Positions 1,583 to 25,034 of a DNA stretch of 58,793 nucleotides are shown here, piece by piece. The stretch is from IMG/VR virus record IMGVR_UViG_3300017786_003035, positions 1 to 58,793 of that record. One strand, given 5' to 3'. The position numbers and the translations under genes are program-made. The DNA comes from a virus. Below the pieces are notes generated by a model. That model was not told where the DNA came from. It saw nothing but the letters and a program-made list of their open reading frames with translations, and did no database searches. Each line of letters starts with the position of its first letter. The first letter of the stretch is position 1.

Positions 1583-2005
1583 TTAAAGTGTATATTCAAA
1601 ATTTTGACAATCGGTGTACTTGCCAATTAGTTTAGCACCATTTCGTAAATGAAATCGTTCTGCCATTTCTGTTAGCGGACTGAGTGTTACTATCCTACTA
1701 ATATTTTCTACATCTGCCGCGGAACGTAATTCGTTAATAATTGTTCTACCTGATCCTTTACTATAACTCCATACTGTATACGCAACTAGTATATCGCCTG
1801 TTGGACTTGTAAATTCTTTTAATTGCTGTTCATTAGTAGGAACTTCTGTACACAATGCTGTACATATAATTGCCTTTACTTGATTTTCTTCTTCTAGTAC
1901 ATTGACTACACATCCTGTCCTAGTTCTGTCAGCATAAGAAATATGAGGACGAACAGGATCGTCTTTTAGTAAGTGTTGTTCTGCTTCAAGTAATGTTCTA
2001 ATCAA
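1583..2005 (-). CDS. GNAT-like small protein downstream of gp41
   Basis: 140 aa. The start is TTG at 2005, overlapping the TGA of the helicase gene (TTGA). It is supported by an AGGAG about 7 nt upstream, and a stop lies just before it in frame, so no ATG alternative exists upstream. The C-terminal half (LVAYTVWSYSKGSGRTIINEL, then VTLSPLTEMAERFHLRNGA) has the shape of the GNAT N-acetyltransferase acetyl-CoA site: a strand, a G-x-G turn, a helix, then an AERFHLRNGA helix resembling the usual FYxKxGF element. The substrate is unknown. The call rests on fold-like pattern only. Confidence 0.6.
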   Translation of the reverse strand: MIRTLLEAEQHLLKDDPVRPHISYADRTRTGCVVNVLEEENQVKAIICTALCTEVPTNEQQLKEFTSPTGDILVAYTVWSYSKGSGRTIINELRSAADVENISRIVTLSPLTEMAERFHLRNGAKLIGKYTDCQNFEYTL

Positions 2006-3450
2006 TCATCGTCTCCTGGTAAGTTAGCTAAAAATGATCTTAGTTTAGTAGAGTCTGCCTCTGCTTTAACTTTTCCAATACCAGAACCTTGACTAGGATC
2101 TGCGTTTGGATCTGGTGTTGTTCCTCCACCACGTTTAATGCTATTCAAAATACTACTGCCTCCGCCTTGTGGTGCGTTACTATAGCTGTCATCATCTTCA
2201 TCACAATCACTAATACGTAATGTGTCTAAGTCAAATTCTAAATCAATCTTTTGTCCTACACCACCCGAGTTACGTGTCTTCATTAACTGTAGTTGATAGC
2301 GTCCACGTTCACGCATTGCTCTACTTGTAAAGATACCAAACACGTTATCTGCTGTCTGGATCTTACTAAGTCCACCACTGATGTGCGAGTGATCAAATTC
2401 AATTTCTTCTACAGCACCTCTGTTCAACTGTGCCGCTGTAACAAACACTGTGTTCAATTCCATTGCTAGGTTACGTAGTTCTTCACTTACGTACTTGTCT
2501 TTGATAAACAAGTTCTCAGCACTTACCTTTGTGCTTGCTGGCATCAACAAGTCCAAGTAGTCAATCAATAGTACGTCTACTCTAGTACCTGTTTTAATTT
2601 CATATTCTTTAATGTAACTGCGTACATCATTTGCTGTCTTACCACTAGGCATATACTTGACTTGAAACTTACCTGACTTCTTGCCAATCATCTTAACTTT
2701 CATTTCAACGTCATCAATGTTCTTAAACACATCACGACTTGGAATGCCTGTTACCATACTATCAACACGCATACTAACTAGTGCTTCACTAAGTTCTAGT
2801 GTTAAGTAAATTACGTTAAGACCTTTCTCAGCCATGTTAACACCAATGTTAGCCAAGAACAAACTCTTACCTGCTCCTGATCCACCTGCGAATATATTCA
2901 GTTCACCTCTATTGAATCCACCAAACAGTTTCTTATCAATTGCTCCCCAACCTGTACTTACTTGTCCATTAGTACTCTTAATACCTTCTAGTCTTGCTCT
3001 AGGATCAGCAAAGTAATTTGTACCCAAGTCTTTTTGTAGACCAATCTGTACAGCCTTCTTTACTATGTCTTCGCACTGTCCATACTCACCCTTTTCAAGT
3101 AAGTCAGCACTCTTAAGGATTGCGGCCTCTAGTGCTTTGTGTTTACTAAATGTTTCAAACTCTGCTAGTAACCAATCATAGTGACTTTCGTTTAGTTCAC
3201 CTGTGTGCTTTAATACATTATCACCGTGTAGCTCACTTGCCGCATTGATCATATCAAGTGTAGGCAATGTATTAAACTCTGTAACATAGTTACTTAAAAA
3301 CTCTGCCGCCGGCTTTAGTCTTCTATCAAAACTATTTGGATCAAACACAGCCTGACACCTAACAAAACTCTCTGCGTCTTGTAGCATCATTTCTAGATAC
3401 ACTTTTTGTATATCATATCCGTAGTCTGTATTTTGTCTAGTTTCGTTCAT
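2002..3450 (-). CDS. 41: Replicative DNA helicase, T4 gp41-like (DnaB family)
   Basis: 482 aa. It unwinds duplex DNA ahead of the phage replisome as a hexamer and partners with primase gp61. An N-terminal helical domain (about 1-140) precedes the RecA-like motor. Walker A is GGSGAGKS at 189-196. Walker B is a DVLLIDYLDLL-type segment near 290, followed by a TAAQLNR segment typical of DnaB motif 3. The C-terminal tail after about 420 is Gly/Ser/Pro-rich and probably disordered. The start ATG at 3450 has GAGAAG about 7 nt upstream. A sigma70-type promoter lies 130 bp upstream, and the gene is coupled to the GNAT-like gene downstream. Confidence 0.95.
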   Translation of the reverse strand: MNETRQNTDYGYDIQKVYLEMMLQDAESFVRCQAVFDPNSFDRRLKPAAEFLSNYVTEFNTLPTLDMINAASELHGDNVLKHTGELNESHYDWLLAEFETFSKHKALEAAILKSADLLEKGEYGQCEDIVKKAVQIGLQKDLGTNYFADPRARLEGIKSTNGQVSTGWGAIDKKLFGGFNRGELNIFAGGSGAGKSLFLANIGVNMAEKGLNVIYLTLELSEALVSMRVDSMVTGIPSRDVFKNIDDVEMKVKMIGKKSGKFQVKYMPSGKTANDVRSYIKEYEIKTGTRVDVLLIDYLDLLMPASTKVSAENLFIKDKYVSEELRNLAMELNTVFVTAAQLNRGAVEEIEFDHSHISGGLSKIQTADNVFGIFTSRAMRERGRYQLQLMKTRNSGGVGQKIDLEFDLDTLRISDCDEDDDSYSNAPQGGGSSILNSIKRGGGTTPDPNADPSQGSGIGKVKAEADSTKLRSFLANLPGDDD

Positions 3451-3598
3451 AAATTATCTTCTCTAATTCTTTTAATATCTCTGTATAATCTAACACAGCT
3501 TTTAGTTTTTCCTCTTGTGTTGTATCACCTTCTACAACTTCCATCATTAACGGAAATTGTTCTGTAAGCCTTTTGTTTATTATACGCTCTGATACCAC
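3437..3598 (-). CDS. Small helical protein between the carbamoyltransferase-like gene and gp41
   Basis: A short open frame of 53 aa from GTG 3598, or 36 aa from ATG 3547. Both read into the stop at 3437, inside the start of gp41. The predicted product is charged and helical (segments EGDTTQEEKLKAV and YTEILKELEKIIYERN), and the frame is open without rare-looking codons. The GTG start has AAAGG about 10 nt upstream. However, the sigma70-like promoter at 3579-3608 would start transcription near 3572, which allows only the ATG start. Function is unknown; it overlaps its neighbours at both ends, as is usual in this genome. Confidence 0.5.
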   Translation of the reverse strand: MVSERIINKRLTEQFPLMMEVVEGDTTQEEKLKAVLDYTEILKELEKIIYERN

Positions 3599-3608
3599 TG
3601 TTTGTCAA
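3579..3608 (-). promoter_or_regulatory. Sigma70-type early promoter before gp41
   Basis: On the minus strand: TTGACA (3608-3603), an 18-nt spacer, then a perfect TATAAT (3584-3579). Predicted +1 is near 3572. It lies in the last codons of the carbamoyltransferase-like gene and would drive the small ORF, gp41 and the genes downstream. Confidence 0.7.
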
Positions 3609-4557
3609 CCTTTATTTTGGTTTGTGTTTTGGCTAATACAGCACCTATACAACTACCTGGATCACCCGGATTCTTTGGTACATACACACTATTCCATTGA
3701 TTCTGTATCTTGTCAACAGCATCTTTATTAAGTGCGCCACCGCCTGCTAGTGCTATGTGCTTTGCTCCTGTTCGTACTTTTGCCCAAATACTAAGAACGT
3801 TTACAGCGTATTCAAATATTGCTTGTGTAGCCTCCGCTATATCATACATGTCTTGTTTTGTATGTAATTCTTTTCTCCACCACATACATCCACGATGTAA
3901 GTTATGCTTCATCTTAATATGTTGCGGATTATTTCTTGTATGATCAACATCTATTAATTCTTTACGTATTATATGAGCTAGGCGTTTAGCATTACCTTTC
4001 TTTGCCCATTGTGCTACTAAGTATTCGTCACGTTGAGGAACTAGCCCCATACGTTGTGTCATAGCACTATAAAACAATCCTAAACTGTGTGGATAACTTT
4101 GACTGTGTATCTTGTTTAATCTATTGTCCTTACCGTGCCACACTGTTAATGTTTCAAACTCTCCAATGCTATCTAAACATACTACAGCACAATCATCATG
4201 AGGCTGTGTGTAATAAGCATAGGCCGCATGTGATAAGTGATGTTGTGTGTATTCAATTTTACAAGATATATTCCATTGCGAGAGATATGATCTAATATTG
4301 TTTTCTTTATACAACCAACCTTGACCAGCACGCCATTGTCTAAATGTTTTAAGCAACGGACGTTCATACCAAACAACTTTATTAGGCCTAGGTAACTGTT
4401 CTGTAATTGTAACATGCTGTAGCATCTCCCAATTAAAGTCAGGGTCATTAGAAATCTTAGAAAAGTCTTTCGATTGTCCTGCCCACAATAGTTCGTTATT
4501 ATCAAAGACTGCTAAACTAGCATCATGACTGTTGCCAACCATTCCCCATTTAATCAT
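3580..4557 (-). CDS. Carbamoyltransferase-like protein, Kae1-like half only (NodU/CmcH family)
   Basis: About 325 aa from the ATG at 4557, which has GGA 8 nt upstream and sits inside the end of the DUF2061 gene. It matches the N-terminal (Kae1/ASKHA-like) domain of O-carbamoyltransferases: GNSHDASLAVF at the start, the metal-site HHLSHAAYAYY, then VVCLDSIGE and an AGGGALNKDA loop near the end. Family members are typically 550-600 aa and carry a C-terminal YrdC-like domain that makes the carbamoyl-adenylate. That domain is absent here; the frame ends about 40 residues after GGGALN. It may need a separate carbamoyl-AMP donor or have another function. Carbamoylation of a sugar or nucleotide is plausible in this context. 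Confidence 0.75.
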   Translation of the reverse strand: MIKWGMVGNSHDASLAVFDNNELLWAGQSKDFSKISNDPDFNWEMLQHVTITEQLPRPNKVVWYERPLLKTFRQWRAGQGWLYKENNIRSYLSQWNISCKIEYTQHHLSHAAYAYYTQPHDDCAVVCLDSIGEFETLTVWHGKDNRLNKIHSQSYPHSLGLFYSAMTQRMGLVPQRDEYLVAQWAKKGNAKRLAHIIRKELIDVDHTRNNPQHIKMKHNLHRGCMWWRKELHTKQDMYDIAEATQAIFEYAVNVLSIWAKVRTGAKHIALAGGGALNKDAVDKIQNQWNSVYVPKNPGDPGSCIGAVLAKTQTKIKVDKQWYQSV

Positions 4558-4771
4558 TAAATTTTGTCCATAGTTTATGTAATACGTAAAACCAAACACC
4601 ATTGATTGCCGGCTCAATTAAAGCAACTGTTCCTGCTTCCCATAGACTTGCTCCGGTCATTATACTAACAACAGCCATAGAAATTACAATATGACCTAAT
4701 GTATAAATCAATGCTAGTGTAAGGCTGTTGTTTTTAAATATGCTACCTATGCCTTTTGTAAATTCAGTCAT
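4550..4771 (-). CDS. DUF2061 small membrane protein
   Basis: About 73 aa. Two hydrophobic segments (LTLALIYTLGHIVISMAVV, and a second around GTVALIEPAINGVWFYVL) are followed by an LHKLWTKF ending, the hallmark of DUF2061 two-helix inner-membrane proteins. The ATG at 4771 lies 12 nt after AGGAG; a TTG one codon upstream is better spaced and cannot be excluded. The downstream carbamoyltransferase-like gene begins inside it. Function in phage is unknown. Confidence 0.75.
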   Translation of the reverse strand: MTEFTKGIGSIFKNNSLTLALIYTLGHIVISMAVVSIMTGASLWEAGTVALIEPAINGVWFYVLHKLWTKFND

Positions 4772-4786
4772 CAACAGTTAGTTCTC

Positions 4787-4909
4787 CTATTTGTAAATAA
4801 ACGGGTCACGTTTTTGTAATTCTTTAATTTTTTTCTTTAACGCTTTTTTGCGTTTATAATTTGTATAGGGACTTTTTATTTTTTCCCAAAGTTCTTTTAA
4901 CCAAACCAT
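4787..4909 (-). CDS. 40-aa basic protein following primase
   Basis: ATG 4909 to TAG 4787; it starts inside the end of the primase gene (13-nt overlap). The product opens MVWLKELWEKIKSPYTNYKR, has a Lys-rich helix and ends KRDPFIYK. It is strongly basic and amphipathic. I recall similar very short proteins ending in RDPFIY in marine T4-like phages, which supports a real gene, but the function is unknown. Confidence 0.7.
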   Translation of the reverse strand: MVWLKELWEKIKSPYTNYKRKKALKKKIKELQKRDPFIYK

Positions 4910-5877
4910 TTCTTTGCTCTCAACCTTATTTTTAACGGAGACGATTCACTGTTTACAGCGATACTATGTAAAGTATACAATCTTCCATACATACCTACAG
5001 CATCTCCTATGTCATTAATACTATCATTCCAATCTGGCATCGATACGTGCCATCCTAGTTCAATAGCCTGTTCTACTAACTTACTACCTGCGTCATCTCT
5101 GTCAGGAACTACTATTACATCTTTACTTAACCGATTGATGAGTAGTGCCTGTTGATCTTTGATTTCGCTACCTAGTAATGCTACTCCGTCGATATGTAAA
5201 GCATCAACTGGTCCTTCGCACACGATAGTAAAGATCTTATTATGACCTTGCTCATCTAATCCGTATACAAAGCCAGGCTGTTGCTCACTCATATATTTAG
5301 GTTGTTTGTCTGCTACTGTTCTAGCAGTCCAACCAACAATACGTTTTTCATAATAAAAAGGAATTATAAGTCTATCACGATATCCTAAACTAGGTGACCA
5401 GTAGTAATTAGTGTCGTCTAAGTTCATTCCACGCTTAGCCATATACTCAAGAACTGCTACACTATACTTGTTGAATTCTGTTATGTCCGCAATTTTAATA
5501 GCATCATCTGGAAGTGGTACATCATTAAATTTAGGTATGTCTAGTATTTGTTTCTTAACAAAGTCATTCTCTTGCTCTGCCATAACCTGTAGTGCCAGTT
5601 TGTTAATAATGTCATCAGGACAATTTAACCATTGTAATAGCTTACGCATTTTATGACTTAGGTTTCTGCCCTTTTGCCAACTTGCTTTGTAACCACAGTT
5701 GAAACAATGATAACTTACTCCACCTTCGCCGTTAGATATTAATCCACCACGCTGTCTTGTGTCAGCACTATCACCATTATGAATACAACAGGGAGCGTTA
5801 AAACTAGTCCATCCGCTAGGAGTAGTCTTGCGCTTAGGAGGCAAGTGTGCCGTTACTATGTCAAATACACTATTCAT
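4897..5877 (-). CDS. 61: DNA primase, T4 gp61-like
   Basis: 326 aa. It makes RNA primers for lagging-strand synthesis with gp41. The N-terminal zinc ribbon has ligands in APCCIHNG (about residues 28-35) and YHCFNCGYKASW (about 55-66). The TOPRIM core shows a catalytic VCEGPVDAL (near 217) and a VVPDRDDAGSKL segment (near 255). Length agrees with T4 gp61 (about 340). There is no Shine-Dalgarno. Instead a strong promoter ends 6 nt before the ATG, so the mRNA is predicted to be leaderless. It lies in the same direction as gp41, a few genes upstream. Confidence 0.95.
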   Translation of the reverse strand: MNSVFDIVTAHLPPKRKTTPSGWTSFNAPCCIHNGDSADTRQRGGLISNGEGGVSYHCFNCGYKASWQKGRNLSHKMRKLLQWLNCPDDIINKLALQVMAEQENDFVKKQILDIPKFNDVPLPDDAIKIADITEFNKYSVAVLEYMAKRGMNLDDTNYYWSPSLGYRDRLIIPFYYEKRIVGWTARTVADKQPKYMSEQQPGFVYGLDEQGHNKIFTIVCEGPVDALHIDGVALLGSEIKDQQALLINRLSKDVIVVPDRDDAGSKLVEQAIELGWHVSMPDWNDSINDIGDAVGMYGRLYTLHSIAVNSESSPLKIRLRAKKWFG

Positions 5878-6127: not shown

Positions 6128-6895
6128 CTAGTTCCTTAACAGGATCTTATCGATACTACCGGTATTGGTAGAATCATCTACACGCTTAAAACGTACATGA
6201 CTAAACACGCCGTTAAAGTTAACATAAGTCGGTGTAGTTGGTGTACTCATGGTAACTGTGTCTATGTCAAACCAAGTACTAGCGGCAACATCATCTAGTG
6301 TACCTTGTACTACAACATCGCCCTTATATGTTGTAGTGTAAAACACTGCTGTATGTAAAGCAGTGTTACTATTAATTTCTGGTTGTCCATCGAATGTAGA
6401 ACTAATATTATTCATAAACGTTGTAGTTGCTTTGCTTGCTATTGGTCCTGGAAATGCTTCGTCAGTAAGTTCTATAATACCTCTAACACCAAATTGTGTA
6501 TCAGCATATGTTAATACATTACTATTATCACTTGCTTTTTCTAAGTATACTGTATAACTCATATACTGTCCATCGATATTTAATGTATCGTTATCTGTGA
6601 TATTAATTGTAAATACCCCTTTATAATTAGGTGTACTTGTTTCTTTTATTGTACCCATATATTTCTTTAATAGTGTATTGTCTTCTGTATACACTTCTAC
6701 ATACGGTGTGTATGTATTTAAAATTGATAATGGTTTATGATCGCTATTCTTTAATTCAAAAGTTATTAAATTATCAATACCTTTTGCTACTGTTATGTTT
6801 CTTTGATACACTTTTCTATACTCCTGACCCGCAACGAATCCATCTACGACTACCACGGTCTTGTTCGATACTAAATATGTAGAAGCTAGTTGCAT
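6128..6895 (-). CDS. Putative virion structural (tail or fibre-associated) protein
   Basis: 255 aa, rich in Thr, Asn, Ser and Val with little charge, typical of a beta-sandwich virion protein. The N-terminal 150 residues (GIDNLITFELKNSDHKPLS, then GVFTINITDNDTLNI and GVRGIIELTDEA) resemble a BppU-like immunoglobulin-type domain. The C-terminal part (TAVFYTTTYKGDVVVQGTL, ending VFSHVRFKRVDDS) resembles a carbohydrate-binding or discoidin-like module. A late promoter with a perfect T4-type TATAAATA lies 16 nt plus a Shine-Dalgarno upstream, supporting a late structural role. The exact virion position is unknown. Confidence 0.65.
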   Translation of the reverse strand: MQLASTYLVSNKTVVVVDGFVAGQEYRKVYQRNITVAKGIDNLITFELKNSDHKPLSILNTYTPYVEVYTEDNTLLKKYMGTIKETSTPNYKGVFTINITDNDTLNIDGQYMSYTVYLEKASDNSNVLTYADTQFGVRGIIELTDEAFPGPIASKATTTFMNNISSTFDGQPEINSNTALHTAVFYTTTYKGDVVVQGTLDDVAASTWFDIDTVTMSTPTTPTYVNFNGVFSHVRFKRVDDSTNTGSIDKILLRN

Positions 6896-6928: not shown

Positions 6929-7300
6929 ATGTTGAGAAAAGAAATAGAAGAAAATTTCCCTTTTTTAAGTGTTGTCACTTACGGTGGCGCAGAGTATATC
7001 GGCATCATTAATAATCAAGACAACTTCATTACAAGTATGTATGTTTATACAAACTTAAAATCTCCAGTAGATAAACAAAAATTCATTGAATTAGGCGAAG
7101 TATGGTGGTGGGAATCAAACAGGATGATTCCGATTAACATATTCCTTAATAATGATATGAATCAATTTAAGTATGTACAAATGACTATGAATAGTAAAGA
7201 TGTTAAAGTTACAATGGGTCCTACAGTGAATTTAAATAAACTTCATGTAAAGAGAGTTAAGCGTAAAAGTGTACAGCTTGTAAAAAAGCCTAAGAATTAA
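6929..7300 (+). CDS. Conserved phage protein on the opposite strand
   Basis: 123 aa, the only plus-strand gene in the first 46 kb. It has a compact beta-rich N-terminus (FPFLSVVTYGGAEYIGIINN), a WWWESNRMIPINIFL core and a basic C-terminal tail (KRVKRKSVQLVKKPKN) that could contact nucleic acid. The start ATG at 6929 has only a close AGG before it, and no good promoter is visible. The late promoter of the minus-strand neighbour overlaps its upstream region. It ends by overlapping the convergent DnaE-like gene by 11 nt. No domain is recognised. Confidence 0.7.
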   Translation: MLRKEIEENFPFLSVVTYGGAEYIGIINNQDNFITSMYVYTNLKSPVDKQKFIELGEVWWWESNRMIPINIFLNNDMNQFKYVQMTMNSKDVKVTMGPTVNLNKLHVKRVKRKSVQLVKKPKN

Positions 7301-7850
7301 TTTGTTCACACAATAAATTCATGTGTACTACACACGCCATAGCGTAAGATATGGCATGTGCTTTCTTAAAATAATACTCACCGTTGGTCGGCTTTACCCA
7401 AACCTCTGATAGTATCTTTTCCCAACTTTCGTTTGCTAGGTGTCGCTTTGCTGGACGTATTATTGCCAGTGTTGCCGCCAATTGTTGTACCGAAGTAGGC
7501 TTCAATTGTTTCAATAGACTGTCGTGTCCGCTTAGATGAAATACTTTGTCGACGAAGTCTTTGTGTTCCAGTAGTTGCCATAATGGTTCCCTTTCCATAA
7601 GTTCTTGTAGATGTGCCTCGTCTCTTACATCTTTGTAAATAGACACATTTAAAAAATCTAGTTTAAAGTAACCGCGTTCTTCAGCTGTCTTGTGTTCGAT
7701 AGTAGATAAATTATCTACTGGGTTGTGTGGTATTTCTGTAGCATACACACCAGTGTTATGTTTCTTACCTGTGTTTAATTTTGCCACACGATGCTTGAGT
7801 CTACTAAGCACAATAGTTCTGTCAGCAAAGTCAATATCGATATCAGGCAT
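7290..7850 (-). CDS. Miniature DnaE (DNA polymerase III alpha)-like protein
   Basis: 186 aa. The order of motifs follows the catalytic core of bacterial DnaE in compressed form. PDIDIDF (2-8) matches the PDFDIDF motif with two catalytic Asp. HNTGVYATEI (31-40) matches the HAAGVVI region. GYFKLDFLNV (60-69) matches the KFDFLGL motif with the third catalytic Asp. VFHLSGHDSLLKQLKPT (103-119) matches the FQxES...LKP segment, and LAATLAIIRPAK matches the L..A..RPG segment. FKKAHAISYA (161-170) matches FNKSHAxAYA. PHP, most of the fingers and all C-terminal domains are missing. Whether it polymerises anything is unknown. The start ATG has GGA about 8 nt upstream. Confidence 0.7.
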   Translation of the reverse strand: MPDIDIDFADRTIVLSRLKHRVAKLNTGKKHNTGVYATEIPHNPVDNLSTIEHKTAEERGYFKLDFLNVSIYKDVRDEAHLQELMEREPLWQLLEHKDFVDKVFHLSGHDSLLKQLKPTSVQQLAATLAIIRPAKRHLANESWEKILSEVWVKPTNGEYYFKKAHAISYAMACVVHMNLLCEQINS

Positions 7851-10657: not shown

Positions 10658-11109
10658 AGTTTTACTTTATCCATTCCGTATTCTTTTGCTAGTGCTTGAA
10701 TATCTTTCTTTGTCATAATCTTAGCAAGCATTTCTATTTCGTCTATTTTCTTATTAGGATATAGTTCTGCTAAAAACTTAGACGACTTACTGTTATCAGT
10801 TGTTTTCTTTTTGTAACCAATCCATTGATGATATTCGATCTTTTTACTGTTACCTGATAAACATATTAGTTGCCATAGTAACTTCTTATGTTTCTGTAGT
10901 GTAAAGAAATGTTTGTTGTAGTATTCGTTTGTTTTGAATATAGCAAGCTCTTGATTATCTCTGCCACCGGAAACACTGCTAACATATCTGTTTAGTAGAT
11001 AGAAACTTACTTGTTTCTTTTCGTCATCAGTTAATTCATCCCATACATTTGTTGCGCCCATGTCGATGGCCGCTAGTATATCTTTTATCGGGAGTTTTGT
11101 TTGTGCCAT
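10654..11109 (-). CDS. Conserved phage protein, possibly clamp-loader small-subunit (gp62)-like
   Basis: 151 aa. The layout resembles the small clamp-loader subunit of marine T4-like phages as I recall it: an N-terminal KDILAAI helix, an ELTDDEKKQVSFYLLNRYVS segment, a Tyr/Lys-rich middle with HQWIGYKKK, and a C-terminal IEMLAKIMTKKDIQALAKEYG pair of helices. The gene is not next to the sliding clamp or large loader subunit, which are not in this window, so a paralogue with another role is equally possible. It overlaps kdsB by 25 nt at its start and the SGNH gene by 4 nt at its end. Confidence 0.45.
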   Translation of the reverse strand: MAQTKLPIKDILAAIDMGATNVWDELTDDEKKQVSFYLLNRYVSSVSGGRDNQELAIFKTNEYYNKHFFTLQKHKKLLWQLICLSGNSKKIEYHQWIGYKKKTTDNSKSSKFLAELYPNKKIDEIEMLAKIMTKKDIQALAKEYGMDKVKL

Positions 11110-11762
11110 TCTTTTACATCCTCAGGTGTGTTAATCTCAATTCCGTTAAACTCAACTTCAACACAACCAATCTCAACATTATTTTGTATCCAACGCAGTT
11201 GCTCAAGTTTCTCAATCTCTTCTTCTTTACTAGGCTTTGTATCTTTTAATATCGGCGCAAGTCCTGATCTGTATCCATATATACCAAGATGCCAATCACC
11301 GTATGCTAATTTTGCTCTACAAAACCAATGTGCGTAATCTCCTGTTCGTATTAGTTTAACACAATTTGGATCTTTTAGCAAGTCTTTTGGCATACTAGTA
11401 TAAGCAGTTGCTACATCATATAAGTCTAGTTTGTCTTTTACTGCCCTAATAATTTTTCTATTAATGTCAGGCATGTCACCTTGTACGTTTATAACTTTAT
11501 CATATTGTGTTGGTAGTTGTGATAGAGAACCAAAGCATCTTTCAGTGCCACTTTGATAATCTCTATTATCAATAATTGTTTGTCCTTCTGGAATTACTTC
11601 TGCTACACGTTCGTCGTCTGTTAATACAAATGTGTCTATCTCAGCTGGACAATTATCGTATACTCGACGTACCATTGGAACACCGTCTAATAGTGCTAAT
11701 GGTTTCTCTGGAAACCTTGTACTGCCAATTCTAGCAGGTATAAGAATAACGCACGATTTCAT
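11085..11762 (-). CDS. kdsB: CMP-Kdo synthetase (3-deoxy-manno-octulosonate cytidylyltransferase)
   Basis: 225 aa, slightly short of the bacterial 245-250. It activates Kdo with CTP to give CMP-Kdo. The nucleotide-binding loop is PARIGSTRFPEKPL (9-22); SGTER (71-75) and NVQGDMP (92-98, the metal-binding Asp region) are family signatures. A HLGIYGYR segment and a LEQLRW helix towards the C-terminus also match KdsB. It overlaps kdsA by 32 nt upstream, so the last two steps before Kdo transfer are coupled (KdsA, then KdsB; a Kdo-8-P phosphatase is not seen here and would be a host function). The product could feed the KpsS/KpsC-like proteins encoded further along. Confidence 0.93.
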   Translation of the reverse strand: MKSCVILIPARIGSTRFPEKPLALLDGVPMVRRVYDNCPAEIDTFVLTDDERVAEVIPEGQTIIDNRDYQSGTERCFGSLSQLPTQYDKVINVQGDMPDINRKIIRAVKDKLDLYDVATAYTSMPKDLLKDPNCVKLIRTGDYAHWFCRAKLAYGDWHLGIYGYRSGLAPILKDTKPSKEEEIEKLEQLRWIQNNVEIGCVEVEFNGIEINTPEDVKEWHKQNSR

Positions 11763-12504
11763 CTACTACCTTTTCAAAGTTATCTAGTCTAAGCATATTT
11801 GGACCATCGCTTGGCGAGTCATCAGGCATAGGGTGGACTTCGAGGAAGAAGGAAGTGACCCCAAGAGCAGACCCAGCACGAGCAAGCCCAGGCACGTAAT
11901 CACGATTCCCGCCGCTACTAGTCCCCAGTCCTCCGGGTTTTTGGACAGAGTGCGTAACATCAAACACAATATCAGAATCATAATTATCGAGCATATAGAT
12001 AAGACCAGTATAATCGACAACAAGACTATTGTATCCAAAACTTGTACCTCTCTCTGTAACCCATACTTCTTTAGCGCCTTCTGTCTTAGACAATATGCCT
12101 TTCATGTCCCAGGGTGCTAAGAATTGTCCCTTTTTTATATTTACTATTTTATCTGTAGCACAAGCCGCTTGTAATAGATCAGTTTGTCTACATAAGAAAG
12201 CAGGTATCTGATACACATCAACAGCATCTTTAAATTCTCTTTCAATACGAGAAACTTGTACATAGTCATGTACATCTGTAAGTGTCTTTACACCTAGTTC
12301 TACTTTCAAAGCAAGAAAGTCAGTTAGTGTTGTTTCTAAGCCTACACCACGTTTGCCGCTTTGACTTGATCTATTGGCTTTGTCAAAACTTGCTTTAAAT
12401 ATGTATTCGATTCCATGTTTGTCACATACACGTTTACATTCTTTAGCAATCATTAAACTATCAGTCAATGTTTCGTGTTGACAAGGTCCTGCTATAATTC
12501 TCAA
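11731..12504 (-). CDS. kdsA: Kdo-8-phosphate synthase
   Basis: 257 aa (E. coli about 284). It condenses phosphoenolpyruvate with arabinose-5-phosphate. Signatures: AGPCQHE (5-11), FKASFDKANRSS (36-47), QIPAFLCRQTDLL (99-111), NIKKGQF (122-128), and FDVTHSVQKPGG (181-192). Cys8 in AGPC is the position that binds metal in metal-dependent KdsA enzymes, so this copy probably belongs to that class (family knowledge). It is coupled to the cupin gene upstream by an ATGA-type overlap and to kdsB downstream. The set lies behind an early promoter at 12851-12879. Confidence 0.93.
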   Translation of the reverse strand: MRIIAGPCQHETLTDSLMIAKECKRVCDKHGIEYIFKASFDKANRSSQSGKRGVGLETTLTDFLALKVELGVKTLTDVHDYVQVSRIEREFKDAVDVYQIPAFLCRQTDLLQAACATDKIVNIKKGQFLAPWDMKGILSKTEGAKEVWVTERGTSFGYNSLVVDYTGLIYMLDNYDSDIVFDVTHSVQKPGGLGTSSGGNRDYVPGLARAGSALGVTSFFLEVHPMPDDSPSDGPNMLRLDNFEKVVDEIVRYSYTC

Positions 12505-17438: not shown

Positions 17439-17467
17439 ATTATACAGTATTATAAAACAGAAGTCAA
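17439..17467 (-). promoter_or_regulatory. Early promoter of the 436-aa gene, predicted leaderless
   Basis: TTGACT (17467-17462), 17-nt spacer, TATAAT (17444-17439), again preceded by AACAC. The predicted +1 at 17432 is the A of the ATG. It lies inside the end of the last cassette gene and therefore separates the replication genes from the glycan cassette. Confidence 0.85.
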
Positions 17468-18298
17468 GTGTTTAATAGGAATTCCTTGAGATATTTCTTC
17501 AATAGTCCATTCGGTATGTGCGTAATCATTAAGCCATTGTGTTCTATCGGGCATTAATGGTCTTTCAAGGTCGTGTAAGAAATCTATATCGTTGGCCACA
17601 TCATAAGCAAGAGAAGAAGGACTAACAAAAGCAGGAATACCCTCGATGATAGAATGTATCCCAGGGTTGCTACTATAACTGATAGTACAGAAAACATTAT
17701 CAAACCCCATATCAAAATCATCGTAAGTACCAATAACATGTGCAGGCTCCTGTCTTGTTACGTGTCTAAGTCCACGTTCGATGTGTTCTAATCTACATCT
17801 TGGATGAGGACGAAATATAATAGGACGGTCTGTGTGTTTCCGAATTTCGTCATATGTATCTAATAACCAATTGCTCATACGTGGCATGTTTTGCCACTGT
17901 AAACTTTTATCATGTTGGCCGCATATAAGAATATATTTGCCGTCTGTGCGCCATGGCTTTAAAGATAATCCAAGTAAACTAGCCCTACTATTATCATTAT
18001 TAGGATCATTAAAATAAGCATCACGGTTGATACCATTGAGTCCTACCTTCCAAGTTGTACCTCTAACAATACCGCCAACTTCTAAAACTATTGTTGGTTT
18101 GCCTTCGACTTTATTTCGTTCCCATATAGCTTGGTTTCCAGCCATGCGACCGTTCCAAAGTACGCTCCAAATAACATCAATCCCATCATTACCATTAATA
18201 ACAACATCATGTTTAAGAGCATTAGCACCAGCATGAAAGGCATCAAACACAGGCTTGCTATTGAGAGCACCAAATCTTTCATGTAAATTAAACCTCAT
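17450..18298 (-). CDS. KpsS/KpsC-like glycosyltransferase paralogue 1
   Basis: 282 aa. The C-terminal Rossmann-like half contains PIIFRPHPRCR (about 159-169), DNVFCTISYSSNPG (about 205) and HSIIEGIPAFVSPSS, followed by a HTEWTIEEISQG ending. The same RFHP, ISYxSxxxxxxIxGxPxFV and WTxEE blocks occur in three other cassette proteins. They recall KpsC/KpsS and related capsule or LPS transferases that use CMP-Kdo. No transmembrane segment was seen. It is the last gene of the cassette; its start overlaps the end of the upstream GT-A gene. Donor specificity is not shown by sequence. Confidence 0.65.
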   Translation of the reverse strand: MRFNLHERFGALNSKPVFDAFHAGANALKHDVVINGNDGIDVIWSVLWNGRMAGNQAIWERNKVEGKPTIVLEVGGIVRGTTWKVGLNGINRDAYFNDPNNDNSRASLLGLSLKPWRTDGKYILICGQHDKSLQWQNMPRMSNWLLDTYDEIRKHTDRPIIFRPHPRCRLEHIERGLRHVTRQEPAHVIGTYDDFDMGFDNVFCTISYSSNPGIHSIIEGIPAFVSPSSLAYDVANDIDFLHDLERPLMPDRTQWLNDYAHTEWTIEEISQGIPIKHLTSVL

Positions 18299-19136
18299 TC
18301 CAATATGACTCTGGTCGTTTATTCATCAAATCTTTTGCTAGACTTTTTCCAGAATCTTTCCTTCCGCCTTTCATGTGATCGATCCATTTGCCAAGATCAC
18401 TATTAATTAATGGATGGCCGCCGCCACCTGTTTTGGCTGTGTTAACATAAATGTTTTCACTGTAATCGTGTACATGAGGACAATCCTTTTTCATACCGTT
18501 AAGAATGTGTCCAAAGACAAAACTGTCATGCCATTCTTCCAGTGTAAATATACCATTATCGGCATCTTCATACATCCTTTCAAACTCTTTAAGGAATTCA
18601 ATACATACAGGGTGTTTCATGTTCATTCCATAAAATCCACACTCTGGCCATGTTTGTGATCCTTTACCTCTACCAACATATGTAATCCATTTGTCGTTTG
18701 GTAGTAACTCTTTAAATTGATCATAACTCCAATTACTGTGTACAAATGTATCTGCGTCCATCCACACACACCAGTCCTTAGAGCGTGTACAAGCGTCATA
18801 CACAGCATATGTTTTATTAGCAAAGCGTATAGCGTCCCACTTAAACTTTTTATGCCAGTCACGTGGTCTACGTGCTTTTATATCATCAGGTGGTATTCCG
18901 TTTGCTTTATCTATATTAGCCCAACGTTCTTTGAAAGCATTTAGTTTAGGCAATTCTTTTACAGCATCTAATATTGTAATTTGTTCAGGATCAGGATTTA
19001 CAGGATTACAATTTTCGGCATACACTAATAACTTGATACGTTTGTCAACTCTTTGAGCAAACGAATCTAAGAAACGCTGTCCGTATGTGTCTAATCCTGG
19101 TTGATGAAACGTTGTTAAAACTATTATTTCTTCCAT
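18288..19136 (-). CDS. GT-A glycosyltransferase-like protein
   Basis: About 282 aa from ATG 19136, inside the end of the previous gene; longer in-frame starts overlap that gene by up to 97 nt. The core shows a DWCVWMDADTFVHS motif (DxD metal site), preceded by a FKWDAIRFANKTYAV helix and followed by GRGKGSQTWPECGFYGMN and EWHDSFVFGHIL, the pattern of processive-type or galactosyl GT-A enzymes. The beginning (EEIIVLTTFHQPG) is a Rossmann strand. Acceptor and sugar unknown. Confidence 0.7.
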   Translation of the reverse strand: MEEIIVLTTFHQPGLDTYGQRFLDSFAQRVDKRIKLLVYAENCNPVNPDPEQITILDAVKELPKLNAFKERWANIDKANGIPPDDIKARRPRDWHKKFKWDAIRFANKTYAVYDACTRSKDWCVWMDADTFVHSNWSYDQFKELLPNDKWITYVGRGKGSQTWPECGFYGMNMKHPVCIEFLKEFERMYEDADNGIFTLEEWHDSFVFGHILNGMKKDCPHVHDYSENIYVNTAKTGGGGHPLINSDLGKWIDHMKGGRKDSGKSLAKDLMNKRPESYWNEV

Positions 19137-20065
19137 GCGTAATCTCTCATATGTTTCCAGCATTCGCCAGTTTTTAATTCTTCTTGTGTCCAATGGAACA
19201 TTGATAGTCTTCGCAACCATGCTTCTCTATCAAATTCGTAATTAGGATTTTCAAGATCTCTAAGGTTTGTATTAGCAACTTCTTTTGCTTGGCTTCTTTC
19301 AGGGTCAAGCACAAATATAGGAACACCTTCGATTGCTGAAACAACTGCCGGACTACTATTATAACTAATAACACAATAAGCATTCATTAAGTCTTGCATT
19401 AATGTTCTTGTAGGAGTTGATATATCTACTTTATGACCAATTGCTCTTAATTTCATAATATGCTTTTGAATTTTTTTATCACCTGGATGGAAACGTACTA
19501 ATACTTTACGATCAGTATGTCTAGCAATTCTTTGTAATAAAACATGTAACCAATTAATTAGTTCTTGGCCATCCATACTCCATCCGCCGTCACGTTGACA
19601 TGTTATTAAAATATAGTCACCATTTTTACGGTAAGGTTTTAATCTAAGATCTAATGTATCTCGTAACTTTCCCCAACGTTCGGGTATAAGTTTATTATCA
19701 CAGTATTCGCCTGTAGTAGGAAAAATACCGTCGAAACTATAACGCAAATATGTCTTTGTATTTTTAGGATCGTATGCTAAAAATAAATTACTATCAGCAA
19801 TAATAGTTCTACCACCGTGTGACGCTTGATTAGATAATACACTTCTTCTTAAATTAAGATGGGGTACATGTTTACTTTCCGGATGTACAAACCCTTGTAG
19901 CACACCAACGTCTGCTGGTTCGTATTGGTATGTATCAATAATTGAACCTTTGTCACCTACACGACAAACACCTTCAATAAAATTATGTAATAGTTGTGGC
20001 TTCTCCGGATTTTTATTTCCGGGAGGTATAGCCTTCATGTATGCGTTTACTCTAAATGGCCTCAT
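19124..20065 (-). CDS. KpsS/KpsC-like glycosyltransferase paralogue 2
   Basis: About 313 aa from ATG 20065 (GGA 7 nt upstream; the adjacent ATG at 20068 is also possible). It shares blocks with paralogue 1: KVLVRFHPGDKK, NAYCVISYNSSPAVVS, AIEGVPIFVLDPERS and a FHWTQEELKTG ending. An N-terminal domain of about 150 aa differs between the copies and may determine the acceptor. Coupled at both ends by short overlaps. The capsule/LPS transferase call rests on these blocks and cassette context. Confidence 0.65.
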   Translation of the reverse strand: MRPFRVNAYMKAIPPGNKNPEKPQLLHNFIEGVCRVGDKGSIIDTYQYEPADVGVLQGFVHPESKHVPHLNLRRSVLSNQASHGGRTIIADSNLFLAYDPKNTKTYLRYSFDGIFPTTGEYCDNKLIPERWGKLRDTLDLRLKPYRKNGDYILITCQRDGGWSMDGQELINWLHVLLQRIARHTDRKVLVRFHPGDKKIQKHIMKLRAIGHKVDISTPTRTLMQDLMNAYCVISYNSSPAVVSAIEGVPIFVLDPERSQAKEVANTNLRDLENPNYEFDREAWLRRLSMFHWTQEELKTGECWKHMRDYAWKK

Positions 20066-20924
20066 CATATAATCCGTTTCGATCAATAAGTTTTAATGCT
20101 TTACTAGTAGACATTTCTTCCGGAGTAAATTGGCAATACGCAAGGTAGTGTAACAAGTCCATCATCTGTTCTTTTTCAGGATAAAACGCATCTTCAATTT
20201 TTGATAATTCTGTATTTGCTAAAGGTGTTACACAACAAGGTGCCATAACAAATGCTGGAATACCGTAGTGCATTGCTTCTAATGCGGCCATACTTTGATA
20301 TGTAACAACAGCATAAACGTTTTCATTAAAGCATTGGTGGGCAACACTATTATCTTTAATACGGTCTGGACGTAACCCTTTTTCTCTAATAATAATTTTT
20401 CTATTTGTGTGTTTGCGTAACTCAGCAATAGTATCTTTAAGCCATTCTGCTTTTGTAATATTGTAAAAAGCACATGGCTTTTCACTAGGTGTTACAAGTA
20501 AGATAGGACCATTTTGTTTTGATCGATCTTTCCTACCAAAGTATTTCATATAAGGAGATATATTTAATAGTTCTTGAAACCTATCTCCTGCTATTGTTTT
20601 ATATTTTGTATGCTGGATATTATTTTTAACAACTCTATAAAAATGTTTCTTTTTCATTAAGTTACCCATATATCCGTTATCAATATAATAAAAAGGTCTG
20701 CCAGTTTCCCAACACTTATAAATTTCTTTACGTTTTGTCATGCTACGAAATGCTACTGGAATATCATTACGCCATGGACTTTCGTTTACTTTACTACAAA
20801 TATCTTTCCTGTCAATTACAAGTGCGCTTGTACCTCTAATCCAATGCTTCATAATTTCATCTTCGCCGTTAATAGCAAGCATTTTTGGATTTTCAGCAGG
20901 ACCTAAATGGTCAAATGTACCCAT
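20052..20924 (-). CDS. KpsS/KpsC-like glycosyltransferase paralogue 3
   Basis: 290 aa. Blocks: YYIDNGYMGNLMKKKHFYR (about 79-97), KIIIREKGLRPDR, YAVVTYQSMAALEAMHYGIPAF, and a YCQFTPEEMS ending. The YIDNGYxGN block is shared with paralogue 4 (31828-32604), which has FHIDNGYLGNMRHKTPFYYR, so copies 3 and 4 form a subgroup distinct from copies 1 and 2. The position corresponding to the phosphate or sugar binding HP in copies 1-2 is REKG here, suggesting a different donor. Confidence 0.65.
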   Translation of the reverse strand: MGTFDHLGPAENPKMLAINGEDEIMKHWIRGTSALVIDRKDICSKVNESPWRNDIPVAFRSMTKRKEIYKCWETGRPFYYIDNGYMGNLMKKKHFYRVVKNNIQHTKYKTIAGDRFQELLNISPYMKYFGRKDRSKQNGPILLVTPSEKPCAFYNITKAEWLKDTIAELRKHTNRKIIIREKGLRPDRIKDNSVAHQCFNENVYAVVTYQSMAALEAMHYGIPAFVMAPCCVTPLANTELSKIEDAFYPEKEQMMDLLHYLAYCQFTPEEMSTSKALKLIDRNGLYDEAI

Positions 20925-20927
20925 AAA

Positions 20928-21608
20928 TTATACCTCGTCTTCCATCATGTTAAATAATTCATTTTTCCATTCAGCATGGAATTCACAATCTCTATAATTT
21001 TCAAACCACGGACCACCTTCTGTGTAGTGGATTAGTTTTGGTTTTTCGATATCATCGTATACACCTACCAAGTAATTCCATGTGTGATCAATGCTACCAA
21101 TTTCTTCATCTTTCAACCAACTAAAGCGATGCATGTATGCGCCGTTAAGTTCAATTTCGTTTACAAAGTCTTGATCAACAACTTTGTTACTAGGGTGTCC
21201 ACAGTTCCATAATACCATTGAGCTCCAATTTTTACGTGGATAGATTGTTTGTTTTTGTCCATCCATCTTTGTAGTTTCGGTTACTTTATACTCATGTTGT
21301 ACACACATAACAGCATACTTGTCATCTGCTTGTTCAAACAGTTCTGCAATATCTGTTGTTAATATCATATCACTATCCATAAACACTGCCCAACCTTTAA
21401 AGTTAGTTAGCTCAGGAATAAGAAAACGTGTAAATGTAAATTCTGTTGATGCTAACTTATCAATTGGTCTTTTGTACCAACCAGCATCACGTAGCTCCTG
21501 TTGTTTTAACGGAATAACTTCAACGTCTTTACTTCTTGCTAGAATACTGTGCTTACATACTTGATAAGCAATATCTTCTCTAGTGTCATATCCTACGAAT
21601 ACCTTCAT
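20928..21608 (-). CDS. GT8-like glycosyltransferase
   Basis: 226 aa. It begins KVFVGYDTREDIAYQVCKHSI, has AVFMDSDMILTTDI (DxD near 77-79) and finishes with KLIHYTEGGPWFENY (His and Gly-Gly near 195-205), matching the general layout of GT8 enzymes that use UDP-sugars in LPS synthesis. A SSMVLWNCGH block precedes the acceptor region. It lies four bases from paralogue 3 and is coupled to the fusion gene upstream. Confidence 0.8.
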   Translation of the reverse strand: MKVFVGYDTREDIAYQVCKHSILARSKDVEVIPLKQQELRDAGWYKRPIDKLASTEFTFTRFLIPELTNFKGWAVFMDSDMILTTDIAELFEQADDKYAVMCVQHEYKVTETTKMDGQKQTIYPRKNWSSMVLWNCGHPSNKVVDQDFVNEIELNGAYMHRFSWLKDEEIGSIDHTWNYLVGVYDDIEKPKLIHYTEGGPWFENYRDCEFHAEWKNELFNMMEDEV

Positions 21609-22387
21609 GGATCATACCTTTCTATATCTTCTTCTTTCAACTTGTCTGTCTCGCCTTTCCACACTTCTACAATGTGTGCTGGTTCGTCACTATCATTACA
21701 TCCTTGGTGCCAGGTGCCCATAGGAATGTCTATTGGATTAGCAGGGTGTAAATGTTGAACGCCCGCTCCATCAAATGGATCAGTGTGTCTACTCATTTTA
21801 AGATGAGCATTGCCGCTTACTAAGTTCCACGTTTCACTACGATACTTGTGTCGTTGCATACTAAGTTTACTGTGAGGATTGATAACAAGTTCTTTAACTT
21901 GAAATCCTTCACCTTGATACAGTTCTCTATAGTGTCCCCATTCACGTTCTACTTTAGGTGCTTTCCATTCTTTAAGTATCCAACTACTTGAATTCTTTTT
22001 ATTATCTCCACCAACACCAAATACAAAATCACAATATGGCATATCACCATATGTGGTCATCTCTGGTATGTTGGCATCTGTTCTATCTCCACCGTTAGCG
22101 AAAATAACTTTTATATTACCATGTATTGCTAATGTTTTATAGATTGCTCCACATGCTGTATCGTCTGAATCATCAAAACTAACAATTTGATCAACTATAG
22201 ATAATCCTTTGATAATCTCAGCACGTTCTTCAAAAGGCATAAATGGTCTACCTTTTTTACGTACAAGCCATTCGTCACTGTTGATGCCAACAACTAGTTT
22301 ATCACCTAGTTGTCTAGCGGCTTTAAAATACGCTAAGTGTCCTGAATGTAGTGGATCGAACCCACCTGTCACTAATACTACGTCCAT
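21605..22387 (-). CDS. Cytidylyltransferase-cupin fusion enzyme
   Basis: 260 aa two-domain protein. Residues 1-135 are a nucleotidyltransferase with GGFDPLHSGH (8-17, the HxGH motif), GINSDEW (34-40), as in HldE C-terminal or glycerol-3-phosphate cytidylyltransferases, and a FANGGDRTD motif near 95. Residues 160-250 form a cupin like the mannose-6-phosphate isomerase type II tail: QVKELVINPHSKLSMQRHKYR, then SGNAHL and IPMGTWHQGCN. The fusion suggests one enzyme handles both isomerisation and NDP activation of a sugar. A late promoter ends so that +1 falls on the ATG (leaderless). Exact sugar not determined. Confidence 0.8.
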   Translation of the reverse strand: MDVVLVTGGFDPLHSGHLAYFKAARQLGDKLVVGINSDEWLVRKKGRPFMPFEERAEIIKGLSIVDQIVSFDDSDDTACGAIYKTLAIHGNIKVIFANGGDRTDANIPEMTTYGDMPYCDFVFGVGGDNKKNSSSWILKEWKAPKVEREWGHYRELYQGEGFQVKELVINPHSKLSMQRHKYRSETWNLVSGNAHLKMSRHTDPFDGAGVQHLHPANPIDIPMGTWHQGCNDSDEPAHIVEVWKGETDKLKEEDIERYDP

Positions 22388-22391
22388 ACTG

Positions 22392-22400
22392 ATATTTATG
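22392..22400 (-). promoter_or_regulatory. Late promoter inside the glycan cassette, predicted leaderless
   Basis: CATAAATAT on the minus strand. Counting six bases from the last A of ATAAATA puts +1 at 22387, the A of the fusion gene ATG. It suggests that the downstream half of the cassette (fusion, GT8, paralogues 1-3) is also read late. Confidence 0.7.
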
Positions 22401-22407
22401 TGCGTAG

Positions 22408-23067
22408 TTATTTACTTGTTGTTGATTTGATACCTTGTACTTTAGTAAAGTAAGGTTTGTATGATCGCAACCATGTACACAGTTGTTTACACATAATAGC
22501 ATCATTAGGCCACCAGCCAATTGTATCTTGTAAACTACAAATCTTTTGTGCGGCATCTGGTTTAATAATGTAAGCACTATGTCCTGGTAATCCTTGTGGA
22601 ATTGTTTTGTCTGCTACCCAAGGAACTTCTTGTTCTCCTGAGTTATCTAGTTTATCGTATAGTTTCCAATTAAACGTAGCATGGTCTGGATTGTTAATAC
22701 TAATAGCGCCGCCTTCAAAGTCAAAGGGCTTAAACTGTCTATAGAAAATAGCATCATGTTCGAGTATCATAATAGTTTCATTAAGCTCAATACTCTTTTG
22801 CCATAGTTTATAATGACTACCTGCGGCCGCAATACGTTTAGTCATATCGTATGTCTTGTATGCTTTAAGAGTCATGCCTGTTGTTGGGCAAACTTTTTTC
22901 TTAGTGTAGGGCCATTTCCAATCTACTTGCCACATTGTTTCAGGAACAATAGCAGTAAACTTTTCAATATCTAATTCTGAATTTGTATCTTTTACAGATT
23001 GAATACATTTATCAGCATGTAGCTGACTGTCTTCATGTCCTGGGATTGCTATAACAAATGCTTTCAT
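22408..23067 (-). CDS. GT25-like glycosyltransferase
   Basis: 219 aa. It starts KAFVIAIPGHEDSQLHADKC, then has AAGSHYKLWQKSIELNETIMILEHDAIFY (about 80-108), with the EHDA acidic motif of GT25 LOS/LPS transferases, and later GLPGHSAYIIKPDAAQKI and WWPNDAIMC. These match the GT25 order (H..W..., ..L.ED.., G..AY.....A). A second GT25-like gene is at 29748-30311. Coupled upstream to the methyltransferase-like gene (ATGA). Confidence 0.8.
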   Translation of the reverse strand: MKAFVIAIPGHEDSQLHADKCIQSVKDTNSELDIEKFTAIVPETMWQVDWKWPYTKKKVCPTTGMTLKAYKTYDMTKRIAAAGSHYKLWQKSIELNETIMILEHDAIFYRQFKPFDFEGGAISINNPDHATFNWKLYDKLDNSGEQEVPWVADKTIPQGLPGHSAYIIKPDAAQKICSLQDTIGWWPNDAIMCKQLCTWLRSYKPYFTKVQGIKSTTSK

Positions 23068-23636
23068 CTTTCTAACACATAAACTTTACTAGGTTCACGT
23101 CCTTTAAGTCCAGTTGAATCAAACGTTGATACAAGTTTTAGTCCTACTCTGTTAAACAAATCTCTTAGTTCATTATCATTTATTTCTAAAGGATCCCAAG
23201 GTCGAGCTCTGTTATCGTTGTCTCCATAACCGTGTTCAAGATATATACGACCATTTGGTGACAATTGATCAGCCCAAACAGTTAATGTTTTAATAGGATC
23301 AAACACATGATCAAAACTGTTAGAATATACAATATCAAAATGTCCAATCCATTCTTCTTTTTGTAAATTAAAATCATGCTGTATTGTCATTGGCCATTTG
23401 TCGGCAATTCCAACTTCAGTTCCTATAATATTTGCGTCAGGGTAGCAAATTTTAAAAAACTGTTGTTCAACAGCTCTGCGTGTTCCGTGACACATAATAT
23501 TGTGTGCTATACCTTTATCGCCTGCTACTTTATTAATTGTTTTCTGTTCAACATATACCATATGTTGCTTTTCTTTATTAGCATCTTTTTGGCTATCTAC
23601 GTATTCGTTATAATCTTTATATTCGTATTGTTTCAT
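23064..23636 (-). CDS. SAM-dependent methyltransferase-like protein
   Basis: 190 aa. A Rossmann order is visible: GIAHNIMCHGTRRAVEQQFF, NIIGTEVGIAD, HFDIVYSNSFDHVFDPIKTL (motif IV region), and LSPNGRIYLEHGYGD. The usual GxGxG loop is replaced by MCHGTRR, as in some FkbM-like or phage methyltransferases. Probably O-methylates a sugar. The N-terminal 25 residues are charged and helical. The substrate is unknown. Confidence 0.65.
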   Translation of the reverse strand: MKQYEYKDYNEYVDSQKDANKEKQHMVYVEQKTINKVAGDKGIAHNIMCHGTRRAVEQQFFKICYPDANIIGTEVGIADKWPMTIQHDFNLQKEEWIGHFDIVYSNSFDHVFDPIKTLTVWADQLSPNGRIYLEHGYGDNDNRARPWDPLEINDNELRDLFNRVGLKLVSTFDSTGLKGREPSKVYVLER

Positions 23637-23654
23637 GTACTACTCCAAAAATAC

Positions 23655-24341
23655 TTATTTGATTAATTCTACAAGACCGTGAACACTGGTATGTATATCG
23701 CCATATGGTTCACTTAGAAGTTGATACCATCCCCATTCGTTTGGATATAGCTTTCCTTCATTTAATAATTTTTTAAGTAATTGATGATCAGCATGTTTTC
23801 TTCTATGTATTAAAAAATGGTAAGGAAGGTAACCATACCAATCGTCACGTTTACTTTCTTTGTCAACATCACTCCAATGTCCGCTACCAAATTGACTACC
23901 TCTGCCTTTGCGTATCATAAATCCAGCAGGGCCTTTATCGTAAGCATACTTTAAGTGATGGTTTAAGTTAACTTGTCTATCTAACTTTGTATTCCAATCT
24001 ACTCTAACAATTAAATCATGATGCTGAGGTATCTTTTTTAGTAAATCAAAATGTTGAATCATAGGAACAATACCAAAATAAAAGTTGTCAAACATTTTTT
24101 TAGACTTGACATATTCGCCATACTTCTCATGCTTGCTTGGCGGCGTAACTTCCATAGGATGGTAATGCCATTTAGGATAGTGCATTGTAAAAAGTTTATT
24201 ATGATATTCTTGTGGTACTAAATGTGTTTTGTTACTCCAAGTATGATAGTAAATATCGTTGCCCGGAAACCAACGTCTGAGTTGTTCTGTAATTTTACTA
24301 TCTTTGTCGTTTACACCACTAACACATATTGCTAAGTTCAT
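23655..24341 (-). CDS. Putative glycan-modifying protein (WavE/GT-like)
   Basis: 228 aa. It begins MNLAICVSGVNDKDSKI, then RWFPGNDIYYHTWSN, and HHDLIVRVDWNTKLDR near the middle (a [HY]D-x-[IV]-[IV]-R-x-D-type element found in LPS-biosynthesis WavE-like and capsule proteins), and ends YQLLSEPYGDIHTSVHGLV. This layout is seen in proteins with no firm function beside glycosyltransferases. A role in making the same glycan is likely from context. Confidence 0.55.
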   Translation of the reverse strand: MNLAICVSGVNDKDSKITEQLRRWFPGNDIYYHTWSNKTHLVPQEYHNKLFTMHYPKWHYHPMEVTPPSKHEKYGEYVKSKKMFDNFYFGIVPMIQHFDLLKKIPQHHDLIVRVDWNTKLDRQVNLNHHLKYAYDKGPAGFMIRKGRGSQFGSGHWSDVDKESKRDDWYGYLPYHFLIHRRKHADHQLLKKLLNEGKLYPNEWGWYQLLSEPYGDIHTSVHGLVELIK

Positions 24342-25034
24342 TTAAAAAAACCATTTTTTAAGATTTCGAGCAAGAAGTTTATTACTTTCGAGCCCTGGAT
24401 GAGATCCGTCTAAAGCATGATCGATTAAAAAATCTGTCTCCCAAATTATTTGTTTTACTAACATTGGAGCAAGAATATGCTTAAACTCTTTATCAACTAA
24501 TATTCTGTTATCATGTTCTGCAATTATATGAATAGGAATAATATGCTTACGTCTAAGATAGTTATCAGCAGTATTTACAATAGTAGCAAAGTCAAAACTA
24601 GCGTTATAATCATTGTGTAGTTTTTCGTAATAAAATGTTAAAAATTCTTGATGCTCTTTATGAGTCATTTCAATTTTTTCGTAATGCTCTGATGGGAATT
24701 TCATACCAAGTAAAGCAGGTAGAAAATCATGAGCTATAACACCACCGTGATCTTTTTGTAGTAGTCTTGTGTTTCTATTAGAATTAGGCCATAATATAAT
24801 TACTACTGAATCACTTTTTAAATCTTTACAATTTACAATATTGTATAATGTACGTTTTGGTGATGCGCCTGGTTTACCAAGGTTAAAACATTTCATACCT
24901 AGATCAGTAGCAAGTAATTGTGGCCAAGCAAAGTTACTTGGACCATCGCTCTCGCTTGGTGGATGAGCATCTGGCAAAGAATGTCCAAAAGTATGACTAC
25001 ACCCAAACGCAAAAAGACGTTTTCTATTAGCCAT
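24342..25034 (-). CDS. SGNH-hydrolase-like protein of the glycan cassette
   Basis: 230 aa. Block I is RLFAFGCSHTFGHSL (GCSHT), block II/III is FNLGKPGASPKR and SVVIILWPNSN, and the C-terminal block V is HALDGSHPGLESN (Asp/His pair). All catalytic-triad candidates are present. Such proteins may add or remove acetyl groups on polysaccharide. It is a paralogue-like counterpart of 9926-10657 but more complete. It abuts the RraA-fusion gene. Confidence 0.75.
   Translation of the reverse strand: MANRKRLFAFGCSHTFGHSLPDAHPPSESDGPSNFAWPQLLATDLGMKCFNLGKPGASPKRTLYNIVNCKDLKSDSVVIILWPNSNRNTRLLQKDHGGVIAHDFLPALLGMKFPSEHYEKIEMTHKEHQEFLTFYYEKLHNDYNASFDFATIVNTADNYLRRKHIIPIHIIAEHDNRILVDKEFKHILAPMLVKQIIWETDFLIDHALDGSHPGLESNKLLARNLKKWFF

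Follow-up and report, generated by a model that had tools for sequence, protein, structure and literature searches.

The window, i.e. the whole 58.8-kb stretch of DNA analysed here (58,793 nt of IMG/VR record IMGVR_UViG_3300017786_003035, from an uncultivated virus), contains an open reading frame of 186 codons on the minus strand, which overlaps a convergent gene and lies near genes for a primase and a helicase. The relevant features are:

2002..3450, minus strand: DnaB-like replicative helicase (gp41-like)
4897..5877, minus strand: DNA primase (gp61-like)
6128..6895, minus strand: gene with a weak match to phrog_14467 (virion structural protein)
6929..7300, plus strand: convergent neighbour, phrog_11637 (unknown function in PHROGs), 123 aa
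7290..7850, minus strand: probable C-terminal half (C-half) of a split minimal DNA polymerase III alpha, 186 aa, ATG at 7850, with the D3/D5/D7 strand, K63-x-D65, partial fingers (residues 91-134) and the FKKAHAxxYA helix (residues 161-185)

The 186-residue frame, to which the sequence-only reading had drawn attention, is a real gene with an ATG start on the minus strand. It is not a chance frame, because its best family, phrog_11778 (“DNA polymerase”), matches it over the full length at 7e-62 (residues 3-184 of 186 against positions 8-195 of 197). A stop codon immediately precedes the ATG of MPDIDIDF, which excludes an upstream fusion. The 3′ ends of this gene and of its phrog_11637 neighbour overlap by 11 bp, and the convergent arrangement with this protein of about 120 aa recurs in each of seven complete named jumbo-phage genomes (Phosso, Atu_ph07, Paride, RaK2, Vibrio 2.275, SCTP-2 and XacN1) and, within 1.5 kb downstream of the C-half, in 150 of the 152 viral loci that could be evaluated. 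No Pfam family was found for the copy in the window; we regard phrog_11637 as a candidate third component or regulator. The slot at 6128..6895 is occupied in several relatives by a gene annotated as virion structural, and the primase follows downstream in the same order in most relatives.

Elsewhere in the window, two adjacent tryptophan-halogenase-like genes on the plus strand (51765-53276 and 53273-54748; PF04820, E about 1e-82 and 6e-92) sit in a phage structural/sugar region. A large block of sugar-nucleotide, glycosyltransferase-like and methyltransferase-like genes (11085-12504, 17450-31835, 54752-56721 and 3580-4617) includes DAHP-synthase/KdsA-like, cytidylyltransferase, HldE-like and carbamoyltransferase genes, with calls made by Pfam for four genes and by eye for the remainder. 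A PADLOC match to HEAT-ARM (E 0.005) was weak and was dismissed.

Homology to DnaE and the parts retained

Homology of the C-half to DnaE begins at the catalytic DxD strand and continues from there, the thumb and the central fingers being deleted. Its motifs MPDIDIDF, KLDFL, LKPT, RPAK and FKKAHAISYA follow one another in the DnaE order, as had been noticed from the sequence, although a further motif given at that time as HTGV actually reads HNTGV (in KKHNTGV). Matching by profile to DnaE structures, numbered after the E. coli dnaE gene, equates D3/D5 with D401/D403 (the PD begins at 400), K63/D65 with K553/D555, R132-P133 with R639-P640 and K163/H165 with K758/H760; E. coli H511, F638-R639-P640 and N757-K758-S759-H760 all have counterparts, so that the catalytic residues and the H511, RP and (K)SH motifs are shared with the bacterial enzyme in the same order. 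The earlier identification of D3, D5 and D65 with the three catalytic aspartates of DnaE is thus borne out by the alignment, and their conservation by homologues: when 164 C-half sequences were reduced to 81 representatives below 80% identity, K63 and D65 were invariant in 81/81 and D3/D5/D7 in 79/79 of those in which the position is present. Conservation at the DxDID and FKKxHA sites is in part ascertained, because these patterns were used in the scan that selected the sequences; K63 and D65 lie outside every pattern.

Compared with the 1160 residues of E. coli DnaE, the 186-aa C-half lacks everything N-terminal of the DxD strand, the PHP domain, the Gly-Ser palm half (situated ahead of that strand in DnaE) and all C-terminal domains, those binding the clamp among them. 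Judging from motif spacing, the thumb (E. coli 407-510) has been replaced by about 22 residues, and about 110 residues of the mid-fingers (E. coli 641-750, containing YQEQ 686-689 and R709/R710) by about 24. Since R709/R710 and the YQEQ segment are deleted, the nucleotide-binding pocket must differ from that of DnaE. The sequence-only reading had listed PHP, thumb, fingers and C-terminal parts as missing, which is correct except for the fingers: these are not entirely lost, because residues 90-135 match the Pol III fingers. That match, to PF17657 (DNA_pol3_finger), was the only one in a Pfam search and was itself sub-threshold (15.8 bits, cut-off 22), and TIGR00594, used as the DnaE profile, gave 11.2 bits against a cut-off of 434.

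An AlphaFold2 model of the C-half, built from 74 window and viral-contig sequences, has a mean pLDDT of 94.4 and a pTM of 0.84. When it was compared with the PDB by Foldseek, each of the top 15 matches was a DNA polymerase entry, either Pol III alpha or another, with probability 1.00 for eight of them (best E 1.3e-3), and unrelated folds appeared from probability 0.07 down; the TM scores by query are about 0.5 or less, so that the matches are significant only as a set. No PDB match other than to Pol III alpha chains is credible, which agrees with the DnaE-like palm proposed earlier, and the viral structure library returned phage DnaE proteins.

Full-length relatives with 35-54% identity were found by tblastn in at least 60 jumbo-phage records among the matches listed: PA5oct/Paride at 54%, Atu_ph07 at 52%, Phosso at 50%, Vibrio 2.275 and the RaK2/GAP32/PBECO4 group at about 37-41%, and XacN1 at 37%; in other viral contigs, identity reaches 88% at best. 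Pairwise dN/dS against close relatives is 0.05-0.14, and the gene is under strong purifying selection.

The N-terminal half and the position of the break

PF07733 matches above the family cut-off were obtained in 7/7 of the named genomes, in each of which the N-terminal half (N-half; phrog_11127 in PHROGs) forms a separate ORF of about 170-190 aa, located 15 to >200 kb from the C-half. In all seven it ends in G.GRGS..S[YF]...EF[LF], with the stop within a residue or two; the end pattern can be written as ..GxGRGSS..Y..LDxxEFLK followed by the stop. The N profile matches E. coli DnaE at 319-392, and after the FL392 equivalent only six residues intervene before M399-P-D401, which is the exact start of the C-half. 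The N-half runs directly into a stop and the C-half begins immediately with its own ATG, and no intein-like extension was seen on either chain. In viral contigs, the N-half stop lies 35 residues past GxGRGS in 150/159 loci and 36-41 residues past it in the other nine, while the open frame before DxDxD does not exceed 42 codons in any of the 160 C-half loci, none of which yielded a fused N+C frame when one was sought. From the stop position in the 159 N-halves and the short upstream frame in the 160 C-halves it follows that the split is fixed and that the halves are exact complements.

The AlphaFold2 model of the N-half (L115, 67 sequences; pLDDT 93.7) has Pol III alpha or PolC as its top 13 Foldseek matches in the PDB, with large rmsd; the N-half assignment rests mainly on sequence, because the global superposition is poor. 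In both N-half loci that were viewed, a GroES/gp31-like reading frame, recognised by eye, lies downstream (L107, 2143-2553; L094, 1968-2486), so that the surroundings of the N-half may be conserved as well. It also matches near the C-terminal end of phrog_7513 and phrog_13169 (about 460 positions), a hint that other phage DnaE proteins may be divided at about this point of the palm, but with more sequence on the N-terminal side.

The two halves co-occur in 59 of the 60 best C-half phage records, the exception being a partial record of 109 kb. Among large viral contigs, the N-half accompanies the C-half in 4/7 (C only in 3/7), and the C-half accompanies the N-half in 7/8 (N only in 1/8); the single-half contigs may reflect incompleteness. 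No N-half was found within the 58.8-kb window by PF07733 or by an eight-sequence N-half alignment. The nearest relative with both halves is G002 (237 kb), which has the C-half at 61 kb, the N-half at 183 kb and a family B DNA polymerase (PolB) at 211 kb. The stretch of G002 collinear with the window is 20-67 kb, and we infer that the window's own N-half lies outside the fragment. PolB is present in 7/7 of the named phages and in G002, where its position corresponds to a region outside the window. In another relative, G001 (262 kb), neither the N-half nor PolB was detected, and we considered whether its C-half might be an orphan. Synteny shows, though, that G001 is missing, in one piece, the segment on which G002 carries N-half and PolB: the ends of G001 fall on either side of that segment, and the absence of the N-half there is therefore uninformative.

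Undivided PHP-less DnaE in relatives

Some close relatives of the window carry, in addition, a DnaE that lacks PHP but is undivided (about 550 aa); it has a thumb, full fingers and a C-terminal extension, is located beside dnaB/GNAT genes (loci L105, L106 and L195-L274; e.g. L196, 5839-7641) and matches phrog_405 and phrog_11165. It was found neither in the window fragment nor in G002. Like the split enzyme, it is a family C core without PHP that begins just before the Gly-Ser motif; unlike it, it is a single chain that has kept the thumb and the full fingers (YRRAFAKK). Profile-profile comparison with this undivided family is moderate (prob 52 for the C-half and 89 for the N-half). The undivided protein is encoded together with the C-half in one replication region, where it has not displaced the latter: 10/10 of the contigs with it that were searched also carry the C-half, the two largest not covering the N-half region. 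A 484-kb phage, LR756508, has the undivided DnaE only.

A probable two-chain minimal polymerase and its alternatives

We consider it probable, at about 80%, that the product of 7290-7850 is one of the two chains of a minimal family C DNA polymerase, namely the C-terminal half, which binds the metal ions. The chains would assemble non-covalently and rebuild the family C palm as a heterodimer: the Gly-Ser loop, which binds the nucleotide, would come from the N-half, and the three aspartates that hold the metal from the C-half. Such a heterodimer, if active, may extend DNA with low processivity and for limited purposes, for instance in repair, in the filling of gaps or on the lagging strand beside PolB. 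Bulk replication is less likely for an enzyme that has neither proofreading nor thumb nor clamp-binding parts, in phages that also possess PolB. The sequence-only reading, which saw a miniature DnaE polymerase core, was right about the homology, but the core is not self-contained, its Gly-Ser palm half being encoded by a second gene.

The suggestion made at that time, a stand-alone nucleotidyltransferase or inhibitor, gives way to half of a two-chain polymerase, which reads better given an N-half gene in every complete relative searched. That the C-half alone binds metal or nucleotide, or interferes with the host DnaE as an accessory or inhibitor, is very unlikely: its confident fold as an AlphaFold2 monomer and the few large contigs in which it occurs with no N-half detected would fit such a role, but the exactly complementary N-half co-occurs near-perfectly in the named genomes, the catalytic residues are invariant, and the contigs without N-half need not be complete, as G001 with its whole missing N-half/PolB segment illustrates. 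Somewhat less improbable, though still unlikely, is a two-chain nucleotidyltransferase that rebuilds a Pol-beta-like site and is not directed by a template, adding nucleotides without one or modifying another substrate. The trimming of the parts that hold template and duplex (thumb and central fingers), with catalytic Asp and Lys retained, could be read in this way, as could the true replicative PolB already present in these phages; against it speak the fingers residues 91-134 and the FKKAHAxxYA helix, kept and highly conserved, and the proximity of the C-half gene to primase and helicase.

Only half of the polymerase core is present at the locus, which might also be expected of a decaying remnant, or of a gene broken by an assembly error, an intron or an intein. 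This is effectively refuted by the dN/dS of 0.05-0.14, by the identical break in about 160 loci of each half, by the 15 to >200 kb that separate the halves in named genomes, and by the N-half reading into its stop with the C-half starting at once on its own ATG.

Iyer et al. (2021, PMC7824862) have already described jumbo phages of group 2.2 that combine a family B polymerase with a split minimal Pol III alpha. Our conclusion of a split polymerase agrees with that independent publication, and the window ORF is a further member of the family: it shares the protein family, the split position and the phage type (T4-like jumbo phages with PolB, UvsW and a gp32-like SSB), and differs in coming from an uncultivated relative whose own N-half is not in the fragment. 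We found no biochemical study of the split enzyme in the literature, and a 2026 review of jumbo phages mentions neither Pol III nor a split enzyme. New here are how constant the break is across some 320 loci, N-halves and C-halves taken together, the convergent phrog_11637 beside the C-half almost everywhere, and the occurrence of the undivided enzyme in some relatives.

It is conceivable, if rather doubtful, that the active enzyme is a dedicated complex in which the product of the convergent phrog_11637 gene joins the N-half and the C-half, and that in some marine relatives it works beside the undivided PHP-less family C polymerase and PolB. If so, a single phage replisome would divide its labour among three catalytic polymerases that belong to two unrelated folds. 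At about 370 residues, a two-chain family C polymerase would be among the smallest natural bacterial replicase cores, and would test which parts of DnaE catalysis really needs. It also raises the question of why phages with a T4-type PolB keep a split polymerase under strong selection.
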